Shown here one piece after another: positions 4,561-11,967 of a stretch of DNA of 25,293 nucleotides (its first letter is position 1; each line of letters starts with the position of its first letter). Both the position numbers and the translations under genes were made by a program. The DNA is from a virus, in IMG/VR virus record IMGVR_UViG_3300034375_005543, positions 1 to 25,293 of that record; one strand, 5' to 3'. The notes below the pieces were generated by a model. It did no database searches, had not been told where the DNA came from, and saw only the letters and a list, made by a program, of their open reading frames with translations.

Positions 4561-4589
4561 AGAGGGGACTTCGGTCCCCTCTTTTTTTT
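4561..4589 (+). terminator. Rho-independent terminator after gp32
   Basis: A perfect 9-bp stem (AGAGGGGAC/GTCCCCTCT) with a TTCG tetraloop spans 4561-4582 and is followed by a run of eight T. It lies between the convergent ends of gp32 and the - strand gene. On the - strand the hairpin has only a weak T run after it, so it works mainly for the + strand. Confidence 0.95.
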
Positions 4590-6576
4590 ATGTAAAAGCT
4601 ACAGAAAATCGAGACGCAGCAGATCTTGTTGGCGATTGTGTATATTGAGAAATACCACCAGAAATAGTAGTTTGACGATTACTATTATTGATAATAGTCT
4701 GTGATTGATCTACACTAGTTGGTGAAGAGGAACTAGGTGACGCTATAACTATAGGAGCTTGTGATTTCATTGCGTTATTCATTGAAACCATCTCCGCTTC
4801 TAAACCATTCATTCTAAGAGATCCAGCTGCGAAGGTTGGTGCCATCATTACTGTTTCTCCTGGCATCATAGACATCGGGATTGGAGTAACATCTTTTGGT
4901 AGTACATTGACTTTACCGCCCACGCTGGTTTCGTTCAATGTATCATTTCCGGTACCACCGATGAGAGATGAAGGAACTATCATAGGAGTAGGTGCCGTGG
5001 ATGATTTAGATTCTTTACTCGCTTCTTCTAGTCTATATCTGGCATCTTTTCTATTTGGACCTATTTTAATTGATCCAAACGCATCCTTTTGTAACTTTCC
5101 CGCATAATAAGAAAATACTCTCTCTTTCGGGATGCCGGCTCGGGGGGCGGGTAAAGTTTTAATCCAATCCACTATTGTTTTAAAATCGCCTTCGGTTAAA
5201 GATGCACCAGTACTTGTAGCCTGCAAAGCAAAGTTATTAATAAATTTTCGACCTTGTTTCCAATCTAGATATTTCAGTCCTTCTAATTGTTTTGATATTC
5301 TTTCATTTTGAGTCTTTCCAGCGGCTTCACCACCAACGTCTTTATTCTGTGCAATATTACTACCCAGTCCCGTGGCCACTCTTGTTAATTCTAAATTCTT
5401 CTCTCTTTCTTCAGGGGTCGACACCACTGATGAGGATCCATAGTCCATAGTATCGTTCTCACCAGGAGATTTTTCAAACTTTGGAATACCAAATTCTTGG
5501 CCAATAGTTTTTCCTTGTGCTTCAAATTCAGCAGCTTTCTTTTTATACTCTTCCATTTCTTCAGAAGCTTTTTCAATAATAAAACTAGTAAGTTCGTAAG
5601 CTGCAAATACAGCACCAGCAATAGCAAATCCTCTTATGGCAGTTCTAAATAAATTTTTAAATGAAGTTTTCAATCTTCCTCTTGTCTTATTAGCTGAATT
5701 CTTTAGATCTGTCTTATCTTTTGGATCTATTAGGTTGTTTGCGGCAGCTTCAGCCGCTTCTTCTGTTAATTCTCCAACACCAAGTCCAAAAGCTTTGCTT
5801 ATAGTTCCACTTAAAACTCTACCAACGCCTAGTGTAAGAATACCTAATCCTTTGAAGAAAGGTATAGGAAATAATGAAGCAAATAAACCTACACCACCAA
5901 ATACAGCCGGTAAATTTTCTGCTAGATAATTTTCTATTTGACTTCCAAGAGTAACCTCACCATTATCATCTTGTTCTTTTAAACCTAGTGATTCTACGAC
6001 TTTTCTACCCAACCAAGTAAACGCTGCTGTTATAGCACCAGCTCTCCAACCAAATAAAGCAGTAACAAATAAATTAGGTAAGTTTAAGTTTTCTTTAAAA
6101 ATTTCCCAAGCAGCGTTACCAACGCCTTTAAAAAAATCAGAGGTAAAGAAATTGCTCGCGGATTTTTTAATGGTATTAAGAAGCTCATCAGTCTTTTCTG
6201 GTGCTAGAAATGCACCTAGAATTAACGCACCAACAAGTGTACTTAAAACACCACCAAGAGATATACCCTTTCCTACTTCTATAGCTTTATCTTTTACGCC
6301 CGTCGCCGCGCTTTTTAAAGTAGTACCAAATTTAGACTCTCTTTTTTCTTCAGCGGCCGTCGCTCTTTCTCTAGCACGATTAATTTTCTCAGCAGTCTCT
6401 TGTTTTTTATCTAAGTTTAAATTTTCAGTGTTTACCTTCAAAAAAGATGCGAATAATTTTCTAAGACCTCTGATATTCTCATCTATGCTTTGAACAGCAT
6501 ACATGGTGCTTTCTTGAAATGATAACGCCATCATATCAGAAGTAGCTGCACCAGATGGATTAGGGTTAGGAAGCAT
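4588..6576 (-). CDS. Long hydrophobic tail protein, probable tape measure (gp29-like role)
   Basis: The 662-residue protein has a charged helical N-terminus (about 30-90, rich in Lys, Glu, Arg) and several glycine- and alanine-rich hydrophobic segments (near 105-125, 165-190, 225-265, 315-335). A KKKAAEFEAQGK-type helical region follows, then a Ser/Thr/Asn/Gln-rich C-terminus. Hydrophobic segments within a long helical protein are typical of tail tape-measure proteins. T4 gp29 is 590 residues, so the length suits a tail of about 100 nm. It lies immediately downstream of the gp26/gp51 frames, the place of the tape measure after the chaperone pair in many tailed phages. No sequence motif proves the role; a baseplate-associated structural protein is the alternative. 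The start overlaps the gp51 frame by 11 bases. Confidence 0.6.
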   Translation of the reverse strand: MLPNPNPSGAATSDMMALSFQESTMYAVQSIDENIRGLRKLFASFLKVNTENLNLDKKQETAEKINRARERATAAEEKRESKFGTTLKSAATGVKDKAIEVGKGISLGGVLSTLVGALILGAFLAPEKTDELLNTIKKSASNFFTSDFFKGVGNAAWEIFKENLNLPNLFVTALFGWRAGAITAAFTWLGRKVVESLGLKEQDDNGEVTLGSQIENYLAENLPAVFGGVGLFASLFPIPFFKGLGILTLGVGRVLSGTISKAFGLGVGELTEEAAEAAANNLIDPKDKTDLKNSANKTRGRLKTSFKNLFRTAIRGFAIAGAVFAAYELTSFIIEKASEEMEEYKKKAAEFEAQGKTIGQEFGIPKFEKSPGENDTMDYGSSSVVSTPEEREKNLELTRVATGLGSNIAQNKDVGGEAAGKTQNERISKQLEGLKYLDWKQGRKFINNFALQATSTGASLTEGDFKTIVDWIKTLPAPRAGIPKERVFSYYAGKLQKDAFGSIKIGPNRKDARYRLEEASKESKSSTAPTPMIVPSSLIGGTGNDTLNETSVGGKVNVLPKDVTPIPMSMMPGETVMMAPTFAAGSLRMNGLEAEMVSMNNAMKSQAPIVIASPSSSSPTSVDQSQTIINNSNRQTTISGGISQYTQSPTRSAASRFSVAFT

Positions 6577-6757
6577 TTTGTCTGTTCTTCTCTTCTTGTT
6601 CTCTCAGATGTTCTAGCAACATCTGAATGTATATTTCTCTCTCAAACGGTATCATATCATCTAATTCAGTCAAAGAATATTTATGATATTGCATCAACGA
6701 AAAGTTAAGTCTATAATAACTAGCTAGACTCGTATGACAGAGACTTATCCAAAAAAA
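6566..6757 (-). CDS. 51: gp51-like baseplate assembly frame, likely expressed by -1 frameshift from gp26
   Basis: After the gp26 T7 run, the -1 frame is open for 61 residues to TAA at 6568-6566. It begins WISLCHTSLASYYRLNF and continues SLMQYHKYSLTELDDM, then PFEREIYIQMLLEHL and a charged tail. The HKYSLTELDDMIPFEREIY part resembles gp51 of T4-like phages, a hub assembly factor not found in the virion. The only internal ATG (6694) has no Shine-Dalgarno and would cut off the YYRLNFSL part. The -1 frame is closed by a TGA just before the slippery run, so no independent upstream start exists. A gp26-gp51 fusion is therefore the simplest reading. Initiation at 6694 remains possible. Confidence 0.62.
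   Translation of the reverse strand, partial: FFWISLCHTSLASYYRLNFSLMQYHKYSLTELDDMIPFEREIYIQMLLEHLREQEEKNRQNAS
6708..6757 (-). promoter_or_regulatory. Candidate -1 ribosomal frameshift site at the end of gp26
   Basis: On the - strand, gp26 ends GAT TTT TTT GGA TAA. The heptamer T TTT TTT (6757-6751) is in the exact X XXY YYZ phase for a -1 tandem slip. The zero frame stops two codons later. About 20 bases downstream, AGTCTA (6730-6725) can pair with TAGACT (6713-6708), extended by a G-U pair, around an 11-base loop. That spacing is longer than the usual stimulator distance, so the hairpin is weak support; the slippery run and open -1 frame are the main evidence. Confidence 0.5.
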
Positions 6758-7449
6758 TCTTCAAAGCCAGATATATCTGTTTCAACCTCTTCACCACATT
6801 TTTCACATTTATACTTTGCTCTTAAACGACTGGCAGGCATAGTTTGAAAGAATCTTGTAATTTTATCAAATTGCTCTTTAGAAAGACTTTCTAAAAATTC
6901 TAAAACATCTTTTTGTGTAAAATCGTTGTAAACCGTTTCTTGATCGTAAACATATTCTATACTAGTAGAAAAAATATCAAGAACATTTGTAGGATCAATA
7001 TCCATAAAGTCAGTCAAAGAATTTATAGTAGGATACTTCATCTTCACACCAATATTATCGTTTAATAAAAATGTATCAGTATGATCTTCATTTGTATTAT
7101 AAACAATATTATCTAACTTGACTTCTACATCGTTCATGTGGCCACAATTTTCCACATCATGTTTTAGTTTAAACTGTGCCGTTTCTCCTACACTTTTAGA
7201 TCTTATATGAAGAAACATATGTTCAAAATCAAAATAAGCTAAACTATAAGGATCAATATCCTCCGGCTCAATAACACAATTTTTTAACATTTGACAGATA
7301 GCGTCTATCATGTCTTTTCTCTCACCACTTTCAGCAGCTATGAGAAGCAACTTTTCCTCTTTTACAAGAAAAGGTCTAAATTTAACATCAACTCCATTTG
7401 ACGGTAGTTTAGTCGTAAAGTGTGGGGCTACTATTGATGGTAAAGCCAT
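6745..7449 (-). CDS. 26: gp26-like baseplate hub assembly protein
   Basis: The 234-residue protein matches the T4 gp26/baseplate protein family. It has an N-terminal VDVKFRPFLVKEEKLLLIAAESG segment (typical 'xFRPxxVKEEKxLLxA'), a middle acidic region, and a C-terminal CxxC (Cys215, Cys218) in KCEKCGEEVETD. In T4, gp26 and gp51 act in assembly of the central hub rather than as major structural parts. The ATG at 7449 follows GGAGAG. The gene ends at a T7 run followed by GGA TAA, from which a -1 slip would enter the gp51-like frame. It sits after a tail-tube-like gene and before the tape-measure candidate. Confidence 0.88.
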   Translation of the reverse strand: MALPSIVAPHFTTKLPSNGVDVKFRPFLVKEEKLLLIAAESGERKDMIDAICQMLKNCVIEPEDIDPYSLAYFDFEHMFLHIRSKSVGETAQFKLKHDVENCGHMNDVEVKLDNIVYNTNEDHTDTFLLNDNIGVKMKYPTINSLTDFMDIDPTNVLDIFSTSIEYVYDQETVYNDFTQKDVLEFLESLSKEQFDKITRFFQTMPASRLRAKYKCEKCGEEVETDISGFEDFFG

Positions 7450-7477: not shown

Positions 7478-8050
7478 TTAAGTAGATAAATTAGCAGTAC
7501 TTGTTGATCCTGCTGCGTTTTGTTCATAATATCTATAAGTGAACGTTACATTAATTCTAGGTATAGCATCAGAAGCCCAAGATAAACTTACTGGAGCGAC
7601 TTGTATAGGATATGCTTCTATCAATTTTGTATTATATCCTTTGGCACCAGTTCTTCGTAGATTGTGAATATCTATCGTTCCAATATAATCATCATAATAA
7701 CCAGAACGAAATCTCGAACCATCTGATACGGTACGATTAATTCGATGTGTTCCTACAACCTTATCTAACCATCTATCAAAATACTCTTTAACACGATAAT
7801 CGTCTGATTCTATGAAAGTTATAGTAGTCTCTAGATAAAGTGCTGCATACGCTACTTTTCTTTGAGGTCCAATATAAACCTGTTCTGTTGTAGCAATACT
7901 TCTTCCAGGCAATTGTACAGAGTCTGCTCTATATGTTAAATCTGGATCACCAATTCCAGCTGGACCACTTATTATAATTTCGTAGTCGCTTTCTCTCGCT
8001 GGAGGAACATTATTAAAAATAGAAGTAAATCTATTTAAATCTATAGGCAT
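7478..8050 (-). CDS. Tail-tube-fold virion protein, probable tube initiator (gp54/gp19-like)
   Basis: The 190-residue protein has the pattern of T4 tail-tube-fold proteins. There is an N-terminal segment with ISGPAGIGDPDLTYRADSVQ and then LPGRSI. The middle holds YIGPQRK and ITFIESDDYRVKEYFDRW. The end holds YYDDYIGTIDI, YPIQVAPVSLSW and INVTFTYRYYEQ. That LPGR, KxYFDRW and final YRYY strand recur in tube (gp19) and tube-initiator (gp54) proteins. Because it lies in the baseplate-assembly block next to gp26, not beside a sheath gene, I favour an initiator or second tube-like protein. The start overlaps the previous stop as TAATG and follows AAGGATG. Confidence 0.65.
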   Translation of the reverse strand: MPIDLNRFTSIFNNVPPARESDYEIIISGPAGIGDPDLTYRADSVQLPGRSIATTEQVYIGPQRKVAYAALYLETTITFIESDDYRVKEYFDRWLDKVVGTHRINRTVSDGSRFRSGYYDDYIGTIDIHNLRRTGAKGYNTKLIEAYPIQVAPVSLSWASDAIPRINVTFTYRYYEQNAAGSTSTANLST

Positions 8051-8637
8051 TATATCATCCTTCTTGAGTCTGCCCAGACTTTAGTCTTCGACGCTTTCGC
8101 AAATCTTTCCAGTGGTAGGAATAGGGCAATATCCCATTCACTAGACGATATTTCAATAAATCTAGATCTAACATGATTTGATAGATATCTTTTGAAAGTT
8201 GGTTTAAATGGAGCAAAACGAGAAGCCGCTTTTAATATCTGATAACCAATCTTCAATTTAGTCTTTTCATCGTATCTTCTGTCCGTAGACAGTTCGTATA
8301 ATTTATCCATTAACTTTGCTCTAAGAGTTAGTGGTAAATAATGCATGTTGATACCATAGAAACCACCTGGAGCTCCTTCTACTGGAAAGATCAAAGGATA
8401 TCTATCATAATATGGTAACGTATCTTTTGTTTTAGGATCATAATTGAAAAGATACATCTTTCCTATTGTGGTCCTATTTTTATATTTCGCTCTCTCACCC
8501 CTAACAACAGCTTCCGGCGTAACACTAGTCGTTCTCGCCGCGTTGCGAAACCAATCTCTAGACGTTTGTGTCCTAGCTGGTAATTGTCCAGACCTCACTC
8601 CCTGAGCCAGAATTTCGTCAAAAGTTTTTGATGCCAT
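8050..8637 (-). CDS. Conserved T4-like virion protein of unknown role (195 aa)
   Basis: This 195-residue protein resembles a protein family conserved in T4-like cyanophages and their relatives. It has FDEILAQGVRSGQLPARTQ at the start, then GKMYLFNYDPKTKDTLPYYD and RYPLIFPVEGAPGGFYGINM. LRAKLMDKLYEL follows, and the end is SSEWDIALFLPLERFAKASK with a final WADSRRM. The family role is not known to me; its place at the head of the gp26 block suggests a baseplate or tail part. The Shine-Dalgarno is weak (AAAAACGAAC). A late promoter box on the - strand lies 42 bases upstream (8686-8679). Confidence 0.72.
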   Translation of the reverse strand: MASKTFDEILAQGVRSGQLPARTQTSRDWFRNAARTTSVTPEAVVRGERAKYKNRTTIGKMYLFNYDPKTKDTLPYYDRYPLIFPVEGAPGGFYGINMHYLPLTLRAKLMDKLYELSTDRRYDEKTKLKIGYQILKAASRFAPFKPTFKRYLSNHVRSRFIEISSSEWDIALFLPLERFAKASKTKVWADSRRMI

Positions 8638-8953: not shown

Positions 8954-8983
8954 ATAAACATGATGAACGAAGGAGTGAATGAG

Positions 8984-9535
8984 ATGACTACTTTTGATTT
9001 TGGCAACGGCCCAGTTCCTGCCCATCAGCATTCTAATGGCGGCGGATGGGTTGCTGATACCGCCACTGTTTCTGAGACCGCCTATGTTGGACCTAATGCT
9101 GTGGTGTCTGGTAACGCTAGGGTGATTGATAACGCTGAGGTGTATGATAACGCTGTGGTGACTGATAACGCTGTGGTGACTGATCGCGTTGTGGTGTCTG
9201 GTGACGCTAGGGTGTCTGGTAATGCTAAGGTGTATGATAACGCTTTGGTGTCTGGTTACGCTTGTGTGAATGGTAACGCTTGGGTGACTGGTGACGCTTG
9301 GGTGTCTGGTAACGCTTGGGTGACTGGTGACGCTAGGGTGTATGATAACGTTAGGGTGTTTGATGACGCTAGGGTGTCTGGTGACGCTTGTGTGTCTGGT
9401 AACGCTTGGGTGTATGATAACGCTAGGGTGATTGATAACGCTAGGGTGATTGATAACGCTAGGGTGTATGATAACGCTAGGGTGTCTGGTGGCACTAAGG
9501 TGTCTGGTAACGCTAGGGTGACTGGTAATGAATGA
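8984..9535 (+). CDS. Hexapeptide-repeat protein A, predicted left-handed beta helix
   Basis: The true start is ATG 8984 (MTTFDFGNGPV): GAAGGAG lies 8 bases upstream and the paralogue at 9950 begins identically. The in-frame ATGs at 8960 and 8963 belong to the repeated leader. After a 22-residue N-terminal part with AHQHSNGGGW, the remaining 161 residues are 27 hexapeptides, the last one short, of type V-x-[GD]-[ND]-A-x (VSGNAR, VYDNAR, VTGDAW). This fits nine turns of a left-handed parallel beta helix. Acyltransferases with this fold carry extra loops and catalytic residues that are absent here, so a structural or binding role is likelier. The function is unknown. Located in an accessory cassette on the strand opposite to its neighbours. 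Confidence 0.82.
   Translation: MTTFDFGNGPVPAHQHSNGGGWVADTATVSETAYVGPNAVVSGNARVIDNAEVYDNAVVTDNAVVTDRVVVSGDARVSGNAKVYDNALVSGYACVNGNAWVTGDAWVSGNAWVTGDARVYDNVRVFDDARVSGDACVSGNAWVYDNARVIDNARVIDNARVYDNARVSGGTKVSGNARVTGNE
9050..9532 (+). repeat. 18-bp tandem repeats within hexapeptide-repeat gene A
   Basis: Each hexapeptide is encoded by an 18-bp unit of the type GTGTCTGGTAACGCTAGG, with variants GTGTATGATAACGCT and GTGACTGGTGACGCT. Most units end GCTNNG before the next GTG. The 27 units run without a break from residue 23 to the stop. Near-identical units make unequal recombination with one another or with the copy at 10016-10681 likely. Confidence 0.9.
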
Positions 9536-9548
9536 AGGAGTGAATGAA

Positions 9549-9947
9549 ATGACTGCTTACACCTACGACGAAAACATCTTCTCCGATTTCCACAAGGACG
9601 CCTATGGTTTCCGCCCACGTGGTCATGAGTTCTACACCGCCACTCCTGCCCGCAAGCAGGAGATTTGGGATTCCGTTGGTCGTGCTTTCGATATTCGGCA
9701 AGCAGAGGAGGCGGAGGAAGAGGCTCGCGCTCTTCGTAAGTTCGAGGCTGAGATTGCCTCAGTTATCGAAGCAGGTGCGGGTGACCGTACCACTGCTCTT
9801 CGGTGGATGACTGAAGAGGATACCTTCTATCATTCCCAAGACATTGAGCATTGGGTATATCATCAGGGTATTCTATTTACCGATGTGGGTCGGGCTCTTG
9901 TCGAAGAGTTGAAGTCCATCGTCACGATTTCCGATTGGAGGGAGTAA
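9549..9947 (+). CDS. Acidic protein of unknown function (132 aa)
   Basis: The ATG at 9549 follows a third copy of the leader (ATGAATGAAGGAGTGAATGA), whose GAAGGAG serves as the ribosome-binding site. An ATG at 9528 lies within that leader and overlaps the end of the previous gene. The product begins MTAYTYDENIFSDFHKDAYG, has YTATPARKQEIWDSVGRAF, then a glutamate-rich helix (AEEAEEEARALRKFEAEI) and a C-terminal half with WVYHQGILFTDVGRALVEEL. It is probably helical. No family is recognised. Lying between two paralogous repeat genes, it may be part of the same functional unit. Confidence 0.7.
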   Translation: MTAYTYDENIFSDFHKDAYGFRPRGHEFYTATPARKQEIWDSVGRAFDIRQAEEAEEEARALRKFEAEIASVIEAGAGDRTTALRWMTEEDTFYHSQDIEHWVYHQGILFTDVGRALVEELKSIVTISDWRE

Positions 9948-9949
9948 CT

Positions 9950-10708
9950 ATGACTACTTTTGATTTTGGCAACGGTCCGGTCTCCGCCCACCAGCATTCT
10001 AATGGTGGTGGATGGGTTGCTGATACCGCCACTGTTTCTGAGAGCGTTTTTGTTGGACGCGAAGCTATGGTGTTTGATAACGCTGTGGTGTCTGGTGACG
10101 CTGTGGTGACTGGTAACGCTAGGGTGTATGGTAACGCTAAGGTGTTTGGTGACGCTTTGGTGTTTGATAACGCTGTGGTGTTTGATAACGCTGTGGTGTC
10201 TGGTGACGCTGTGGTGTCTGGTAAAGCTGTGGTGACTGGTAACGCTAAGGTGTTTTATGACGCTCAGGTGTTTGATTACGCTGTGGTGACTGGTGACGCT
10301 GTGGTGACTTGTAACGCTTTGGTGTATGGTTACGCTAGGGTGTCTGGTAACGCTATGGTGTATGGTGCCGTCGTGGTGTCTGGTGACGCTGTGGTGTCTG
10401 ATAACGCTAGGGTGTCTGGTGACGCTGTGGTGACTTGTAACGCTAAGGTGTTTGATAACGCTTGGGTGTCTGGTAACGCTGTGGTGTCTGATAACGCTAG
10501 GGTGTCTGGTGACGCTGTGGTGACTGGTAACGCTAAGGTGTTTTATGACGCTTGGGTGTATGGTGACGCTATGGTGTCTGGTAACGTTAGGGTGTCTGGT
10601 AACGCTTGGGTGTTTGATGACGCTGTGGTGTCTGGTAACGCTAGGGTGTCTGGTAACGCTAGGGTGTCTGGTGACGCTGTGGTGACTGATGAATTGATTA
10701 TCAAGTAA
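9950..10708 (+). CDS. Hexapeptide-repeat protein B, paralogue of protein A
   Basis: The ATG at 9950 follows TTGGAGGGAG and starts two bases after the previous stop. The first 31 residues are nearly the same as in protein A (MTTFDFGNGPV, AHQHSNGGGWVADTATVSE), with mostly third-position DNA changes between the copies. Then come 37 hexapeptides of type V-x-[GD]-[ND]-A-x from residue 23, ending in the cap VTDELIIK. About 12 turns of left-handed beta helix are expected. A block of five hexapeptides starting VSDNARVSGDAV recurs 90 bases later, a recent internal duplication. Function is unknown. The 3' end overlaps the convergent hydrolase gene by 8 bases. Confidence 0.82.
   Translation: MTTFDFGNGPVSAHQHSNGGGWVADTATVSESVFVGREAMVFDNAVVSGDAVVTGNARVYGNAKVFGDALVFDNAVVFDNAVVSGDAVVSGKAVVTGNAKVFYDAQVFDYAVVTGDAVVTCNALVYGYARVSGNAMVYGAVVVSGDAVVSDNARVSGDAVVTCNAKVFDNAWVSGNAVVSDNARVSGDAVVTGNAKVFYDAWVYGDAMVSGNVRVSGNAWVFDDAVVSGNARVSGNARVSGDAVVTDELIIK
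10016..10681 (+). repeat. 18-bp tandem repeats within hexapeptide-repeat gene B
   Basis: There are 37 units of 18 bp, most of the form GTG-NCT-GGT-GACGCT-NNG. A higher-order repeat of 90 bp (five units) begins near 10394 and again near 10484. The unit sequence is shared with the array at 9050-9532. Confidence 0.9.
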
Positions 10709-11254: not shown

Positions 11255-11530
11255 CTAATATTTCATTTTCATATGAATTAATTCTAATTTAGCGTCTTCC
11301 GGAGAGATATCAAACCATTCTCCTTTTAGTCTTCTGTGAGATAATGTGTGATGTAATATACGTTCTGCTTCCATCATATCTTTTTTACTATCAAATTGTT
11401 CTGAATAAAAAACTTCAATTTTTTCTGAATTACCAGTTTGTATAGCTTTTAATCTTTTTTTTAAGTTATTGGTAAAACCAATTTTTACAGGACCGTTTTC
11501 TGGTCCGATGGCGTATACAAAAAAACTCAT
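11255..11530 (-). CDS. GIY-YIG-type nuclease domain protein (T5orf172/MUG113-like)
   Basis: The 91 residues cover one GIY-YIG-superfamily domain: FFVYAIG at 3-9, VKIGFT at 15-20, Arg26 in the LKKRLKAIQTG helix, then DMMEAERILHHTL with a likely catalytic Glu and GEWF at 70-73. The spacing fits the T5orf172/MUG113 branch, which is often free-standing in phages. No DNA-recognition domain is attached. It starts with an ATGA overlap at the end of gp4. It may be a homing-type or repair nuclease, or a fixed accessory gene; an intron or intein target is not visible nearby. Confidence 0.78.
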   Translation of the reverse strand: MSFFVYAIGPENGPVKIGFTNNLKKRLKAIQTGNSEKIEVFYSEQFDSKKDMMEAERILHHTLSHRRLKGEWFDISPEDAKLELIHMKMKY

Positions 11531-11967
11531 TGGTTTATATCCAAATCTTTTTCTGTTAACACATAAAACTCCCAGAGTCTATCTTTACAAAAACTAGACG
11601 CCGCTTTCCATTTTGCTTGATTTACAGCATAGGTAAAGACTTCGTTTATATATTTCTTTGTTTTTCTTTTTTGAACTTTTGGTTCTTTTTTTTGATACTC
11701 TGGTTTTATCTCTATCATAATCGTCTTAATACCACCATCTTTTTGTTTTACTTTAATAATAAAGTCTGGATAGTATCTATGAACTTTACCATCGACAGGG
11801 CTTCGATAAGGTACTATTATTTCTTCTGAAGACCACCAAATTACATTTTCATTTTTATCAAAATAAGACATACATCTTGCTTCCCAACTTGAACGGTATA
11901 CTATATTCGATGGGTTGCCTTTATACTTCTTTGGGTTTTTTGGTTGAAACTTTCCTGAATATGCCAT
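11527..11967 (-). CDS. 4: gp4-like head completion protein
   Basis: The 146-residue protein matches the T4 gp4 (gp50/65) head-completion family: YSGKFQPKNPKKYKG, NIVYRSSWEARCMSYFD, WWSSEEIIVPYRSPVDGK and RYYPDFIIKVK. Glu29, Asp68 and the pair Glu86-x-Lys88 give the PD-(D/E)xK nuclease pattern seen in this family. In T4, gp4 acts after packaging, before tail joining. The ATG at 11967 lies inside the late-promoter palindrome at 11965-12007, and a late box on the - strand (12005-11998) lies about 30 bases upstream. Confidence 0.9.
   Translation of the reverse strand: MAYSGKFQPKNPKKYKGNPSNIVYRSSWEARCMSYFDKNENVIWWSSEEIIVPYRSPVDGKVHRYYPDFIIKVKQKDGGIKTIMIEIKPEYQKKEPKVQKRKTKKYINEVFTYAVNQAKWKAASSFCKDRLWEFYVLTEKDLDINQ

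Follow-up and report, generated by a model that had tools for sequence, protein, structure and literature searches.

Gene 26 of a T4-like phage fragment very probably encodes two proteins, a short and a long tail assembly chaperone, the second being produced by a programmed −1 ribosomal frameshift near the 3′ end of the gene in the manner of lambda G/GT. Comparative sequence analysis establishes the components of this proposal, namely, the frame relation of gp26 and gp51, the slippery heptamer, the coding status of the −1 frame, the absence of a usable start codon from the window as well as from many relatives, and a counterpart joined in frame in T4 gp51. The window is the whole stretch of DNA analyzed, 25,293 nucleotides of IMG/VR record IMGVR_UViG_3300034375_005543. 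It is a marine-type fragment of a T4-like myovirus and also contains genes for a gp32-like ssb, a tube cap, and a gp53-like wedge protein. This 25-kb record, which may be a fragment, holds a single gp26-type gene, and the T4-type arrangement of separate short and long genes is absent from it. The features of the locus are as follows.

8050..8637, − strand: DNA end protector, gp2-like, at the head of the same gene string (phrog_429, 1.1e-56)
7478..8050, − strand: tail-tube-like protein, upstream of gp26 (phrog_45, 1.3e-27; PF23849 Phage_TTP_2, 1.6e-7)
6745..7449, − strand: gp26 short form, 234 aa (PF12322 T4_baseplate, 2.4e-57, Pfam; phrog_150, 1.3e-60, PHROG)
6761..6763, − strand: TGA shutting the −1 frame upstream of the slip site, one codon (AGA) ahead of the T run
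6751..6757, − strand: slippery heptamer T TTT TTT in gp26 codon phase (same heptamer class in 141/147 non-redundant homologues)
6745..6747, − strand: zero-frame stop TAA of gp26, one codon past the heptamer
6566..6750, − strand: gp51-like −1 extension, 61 residues after the slip and then TAA (phrog_634, 1e-24; dN/dS 0.15 across relatives)
6692..6697, − strand: earliest TTG/ATG pair for an independent gp51 start, with no Shine-Dalgarno (SD) sequence and located after the conserved HxSLxxYYxxN block
4588..6576, − strand: long protein of 662 aa, its reading frame overlapping the last 11 nt of the gp51 frame

We propose that gp26 of the window is the short, G-like chaperone. Most ribosomes would terminate at the TAA and release the 234-aa protein, while a minority would move back by one base on the T TTT TTT heptamer and read through, giving a GT-like fusion (...GFEDFF-WISLCHTSL..., about 294 aa) with the gp51 tail at its C terminus. 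Both forms would serve as tail assembly chaperones that bind a component inside the tail or of the baseplate hub; recruitment of a tube or hub partner would fall to the long form. The occurrence of slippage, its efficiency, and the binding partners are the parts of the proposal that we infer.

The predicted slip site of gene 26

On the − strand of the window, gp26 ends in GAT TTT TTT GGA TAA, and its run of seven T's (6757-6751) is in the X XXY YYZ phase. The −1 frame is closed by the TGA at 6763-6761, just upstream of the run, and begins to be open 13 nt before the gp26 stop; it then continues to a TAA at 6568-6566, encoding 63 residues if the two Phe residues of the slip are included and 61 after them. 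The initial annotation had read the gp26 end, the phase of the run, and the closure and length of the −1 frame in the same way, and the window sequence confirms each of these points.

Whether other T4-like phages have a slippery run in the same phase, a point raised in that annotation, was answered by the relatives. In the set first examined, consisting of IMG/VR loci plus the window, every one of the 159 loci placed gp51 at −1 relative to gp26. T TTT TTN was present in phase in 141 of 147 non-redundant homologues (reduction at 80% amino-acid identity), and the gp26 stop followed 0 to 1 codons after the heptamer in 132 of these 141. The second slip codon was TTC in 88 of the 141 loci, so that the run there consists of T6 followed by C.

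The codons used at the site are fixed to an extent not expected from codon usage. The codon ahead of the heptamer ended in T in 141/141 loci (mean expectation from each locus's codon usage, 60%), even though the residue that it encodes varies among Ser, Asp, Asn, Ala, Gly, and Thr, and the first Phe codon was TTT in 141/141 (mean expectation, 69.5%). If lineages are treated as independent, the joint probabilities are ∼1e-33 for the T-ending codon and ∼1e-25 for the TTT Phe codon; since the loci are not fully independent, these values express the strength of the pattern and are not to be read as probabilities. In-frame copies of the heptamer elsewhere in these genes were depleted, with 27 observed versus 74 expected from synonymous shuffling. 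The conservation of the heptamer in phase is well above chance.

Coding status of the −1 frame

The peptide encoded in the −1 frame of the window matched the PHROG profile phrog_634, "baseplate hub assembly catalyst," with an E value of 1e-24. It also matched 577 phage records by tblastn, and the alignments mostly began at residue 1 or 2 after the slip. Across relatives, codons 2 to 17 after the slip showed a dN/dS ratio of 0.15 in the −1 frame versus 1.4 and 1.6 in the other two frames. The pN/pS ratio was still 0.30 in the 59 loci whose codons 2 to 17 include no ATG, GTG, or TTG. There were no gaps between the slip and codon 17 among the sequences aligned, and His7, Leu10, and Asn17 of the −1 peptide were kept in 89 to 96%. 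On these substitution patterns, the −1 frame is under purifying selection and translated from the slip onward, including in loci without a start codon in this stretch. The gp51-like content that the initial annotation had ascribed to this frame is thereby borne out, and its central claim, a −1 frameshift linking gp26 to the gp51 frame in the lambda G/GT manner, gains strong comparative support from the dN/dS value together with the heptamer in 141/147 homologues.

Of the alternatives, the one that survives best, although we regard it as unlikely, is that gp51 is encoded by a small gene of its own, which ribosomes would translate by reinitiation or coupling once gp26 has ended, using a nearby ATG, GTG, or TTG, with the T run being incidental. 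Such a codon does lie within 13 codons of the slip in 89/141 loci. Some relatives have an ATG 3 to 6 codons after the slip, from which GenBank annotates a separate gp51; annotators choose such internal starts, and the phages VAP7 and K474 have TAATG overlaps. However, the remaining 52/141 loci contain no start at all in the first 13 codons. In the window, the first candidates, TTG at 6697-6695 and ATG at 6694-6692, are 20 to 21 codons into the conserved peptide and beyond the HxSLxxYYxxN block, which is under purifying selection even in startless loci. No SD sequence was found upstream of either codon in the window, as the initial annotation had stated for the ATG, and across relatives an SD match of at least 4 nt preceded the first start in only 4/141 loci. 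Given the missing start codons, the absence of SD sequences, and the selection on the early codons, a separately initiated gp51 would lose selected residues in many phages, including that of the window. Separate initiation would also leave the fixed NNT TTT TTN codons unexplained, and the GGAGG element described below is too distant from the ATG to act as its ribosome-binding site.

Elements around the predicted slip site and exceptional loci

In most relatives, the heptamer is preceded at about 10 nt by an SD-like element of the kind that stimulates frameshifting. Affinity for an E. coli-type anti-SD sequence peaks just upstream of the heptamer (mean of −6.8 versus 0.1 kcal/mol for background in the relatives) and reaches −6 kcal/mol or lower in 65% of loci versus 1.3% of background. 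GGAGG was located exactly 10 nt upstream of the heptamer in 49/141 loci, with 0.7 expected, and the conserved Glu residue that carries this element was encoded by GAG in 76/110 cases, with 29 expected. These excesses indicate that the SD-like signal exceeds what the protein itself requires. With its many natural variants, the conserved element offers material for the study of −1 frameshift stimulation.

Downstream of the heptamer, the P-SSM2-like group has a clade-specific 11-bp hairpin that begins 5 nt after it. At one position, U-A, G-C, and A-U pairs interchange in a compensatory manner, and this swap costs residue changes in the −1 frame (Glu/Ala/Val). Pairing was found in 78% of cells versus 30 to 49% when the arms were slid, the covariation score was 0.180 versus 0.041 to 0.119 in slid controls, and folding downstream of the heptamer gave a mean z of −1.50 versus −0.15 to −0.72 at control positions. 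RNAalifold produced no consensus fold over the 38-sequence set because part of that set lacks the stem, and there was no Rfam match at the gp26-gp51 junction. In the window itself, neither an SD-like element upstream of the heptamer nor downstream structure beyond chance level was found.

Even less probable than separate initiation is transcriptional slippage on the T run, which would fuse the frames in the mRNA rather than on the ribosome. Polymerase slippage on runs of 6 to 8 T's is known in bacteria, and the run here has that length. On the other hand, the run in most loci is no longer than T6 before a C, the phase is invariably T TTT TTN, and the SD-like element 10 nt upstream and the hairpin downstream are stimulators that act on the ribosome, as in dnaX. 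The notion that the offset reflects a sequencing error or a broken gene whose true form is a single in-frame fusion has a negligible probability, since the one locus in frame across the junction (L230) is one base off in the T run and is itself likelier an error or a rare variant, while the same −1 offset recurs in hundreds of independent records and isolate genomes. In L230 (3001-3891), gp26 and gp51 form one frame of 297 aa; its junction may represent a natural but rare fusion, or the T run may be in error by one base.

A second apparent exception, the gp51 of IME-SM1 in the +1 frame, was rejected: its close relative Bhz51 carries the standard T TTT TTC, a difference of one T, and the +1 offset is probably due to an indel. 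In the Ackermannviridae-like phages VAP7, T765, K474, and SUMAE, no standard heptamer was present, the −1 extension is kept, and the site ends in NTT TTY (the gp26 stop regions concerned are L170, L173, L174, and L169). The TAATG overlaps of VAP7 and K474 have no SD sequence, and T765 and SUMAE have no early start.

Tail context, T4, and other known systems

The initial annotation had likened the local gene order to that of lambda-type phages, with tube, G/GT chaperones, and tape measure. The upstream part of this comparison stands, in that the neighboring gene is tail-tube-like (phrog_45). The downstream part found no such backing: the 662-aa protein had no confident match to tape-measure families in PHROG or Pfam and no match to its downstream counterparts in phiM12 and Melnitz, although by its position it could possibly be the tape measure. 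Elsewhere in the window, two 18-bp (six-residue) tandem-repeat proteins of the YdcK-type beta-solenoid are encoded on the + strand at 8960-9535 and 9851-10708 (PF18836, 9e-25 and 8e-30), with an unmatched open reading frame (ORF) between them and a locally higher GC content. On the + strand at 1666-2807, genes for a DAHP/KDO-8P synthase-type enzyme (PF00793, 1e-57) and then a cupin protein constitute unusual metabolic cargo adjoining the baseplate genes, and a GIY-YIG/T5orf172-MUG113 protein lies beside a TnsA-like endonuclease N-terminal protein (11255-11967, − strand).

The AF2 model of the short form had a pLDDT of 91.6 and matched gp26-like proteins of many myoviruses among predicted viral structures. 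No PDB homologue was found by sequence, and Foldseek gave no significant PDB match to the model. HK97 gp13 (2ob9) was among the PDB matches with a probability of 0.60 to 0.63, an E value of 0.4 to 0.7, and a TM score of 0.37 to 0.41 on the target; this match is weak, and the structure alone thus does not prove the chaperone family. The chaperone reading is based instead on the decoding pattern, the tail-tube-like neighbor, the assembly role of gp26 and gp51 in T4 (PMC3004832), and the published identification of the chaperone genes of T4-like phages, gp26/gp51 (Vladimirov, Gautam and Davidson 2022, as cited in PMC10885494 and PMC12846349).

The window belongs to the T4 gp26/gp51 family, its short form matching PF12322 (2.4e-57) and its tail phrog_634 (1e-24). 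In T4, not only gp26 (8.8e-64) but also residues 1 to 201 of gp51 (3.9e-52) match PF12322, and the C-terminal tail of T4 gp51 matches the −1 peptide (BLASTP, 3e-5; hhalign, 96.6%, 5e-10). T4 gp51 is thus a gp26-type domain fused in frame to the tail, so that T4 has as two genes what the window would have by frameshift; gp26 and gp51 of T4 are, by this homology, the short and long chaperone forms as two paralogous genes. The unification with T4 suggested in the initial annotation therefore holds, in a way that it had not foreseen, because T4 gp51 comprises a full gp26-type domain in addition to the same C-terminal tail. In cyanophages, gp51 was noted to be missing the first ∼200 residues of the T4 protein (Sullivan et al. 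2010, PMC3037559); this shortness would be explained if the absent residues are gp26, joined through the frameshift. The frameshift model likewise gives gp26 and gp51, poorly understood hub factors of T4, a concrete working model.

Two genes were also found in 44RR, Aes508, an Acinetobacter phage, an RB49-like phage, and the Slopekvirus phiKp_12. In phiKp_12 (L265, 2501-3795), a long gp51-type and a short gp26-type PF12322 gene stand in tandem after genes for the tube cap and a gp19-like tube protein, and both are annotated as hypothetical. In a phylogeny based on the domain common to both forms, the long copies grouped together (100/100), as did the short copies (89/83); a third clade (99/95) held every single-gene lineage, KVP40-like phages and phiAS5 among them. 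Taken as unrooted, this tree fits one duplication in the T4 branch. It is an evenly balanced possibility that a single ancestral T4-like chaperone gene with T TTT TTN gave rise to three decoding strategies: frameshifting, kept in cyanophages, Vibrio KVP40-like phages, and others and often aided by dnaX-like stimulation from an SD-like element and a hairpin; tandem duplication, yielding a short gene and a long fused one, in Slopekvirus and then T4; and an altered slip site, sometimes with TAATG, in the Ackermannviridae.

T4-like gp26/gp51 chaperones and poly-T slippery sites are already known, with credit to Vladimirov et al. 2022 as represented in the papers that cite it. A literature search, covering that study via its citing papers, found no published cyanophage gp26-gp51 frameshift and no description of the breadth or codon-level proof, the fixed-spacing SD-like element, the covarying hairpin, or the Slopekvirus tandem pair. 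Both the dnaX-like set of stimulators and the tandem intermediate of Slopekvirus may be previously undescribed. In none of 17 single-gene isolates plus Bhz51 were gp26 and gp51 joined in the annotation; gp51 is annotated as a separate ORF, although it is probably the tail of a fusion protein, in the marine T4-like genomes covered here and probably in hundreds of others.

A tail assembly chaperone frameshift of the lambda G/GT type is conserved among phages (Xu, Hendrix and Duda 2004, as summarized in PMC5009743), and some T4-like phages are reported to dispense with the frameshift, the short form and the fused long form each having a gene (Vladimirov et al. 2022, as cited in PMC10885494). In Vandenendeviridae and Andersonviridae, the chaperone frameshift occurs at GTTTTT (phage Adele, PMC12846349). 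Adele resembles the window in having a poly-T −1 slippery site that ends the short chaperone gene and a downstream part that is often annotated as a separate ORF, but it belongs to other phage families and is likened here by description. T4 has a homologous short form (gp26) and a long form (gp51) with the same C-terminal tail as the window; they are encoded by two paralogous, divergently transcribed genes, in contrast to one gene with a frameshift.

Like lambda G/GT, the window has a predicted −1 shift close to the 3′ end of a small gene that a tail-tube-like gene precedes; the expected products are a short and a long one, and the extension lacks a start of its own. G/GT-type pairs are recognized by a frameshift product made at a low ratio and by two proteins that are both required for the tail but do not form part of the virion. 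The lambda heptamer is G GGA AAG, whereas that of the window and its relatives is T TTT TTN, and the protein family here is PF12322. The −1 signal of E. coli dnaX, finally, consists of an SD-like element ∼10 nt upstream, a slippery heptamer, and a downstream hairpin. All three are present in the P-SSM2-like relatives, although in a different gene, and of the three the window site has the heptamer only.
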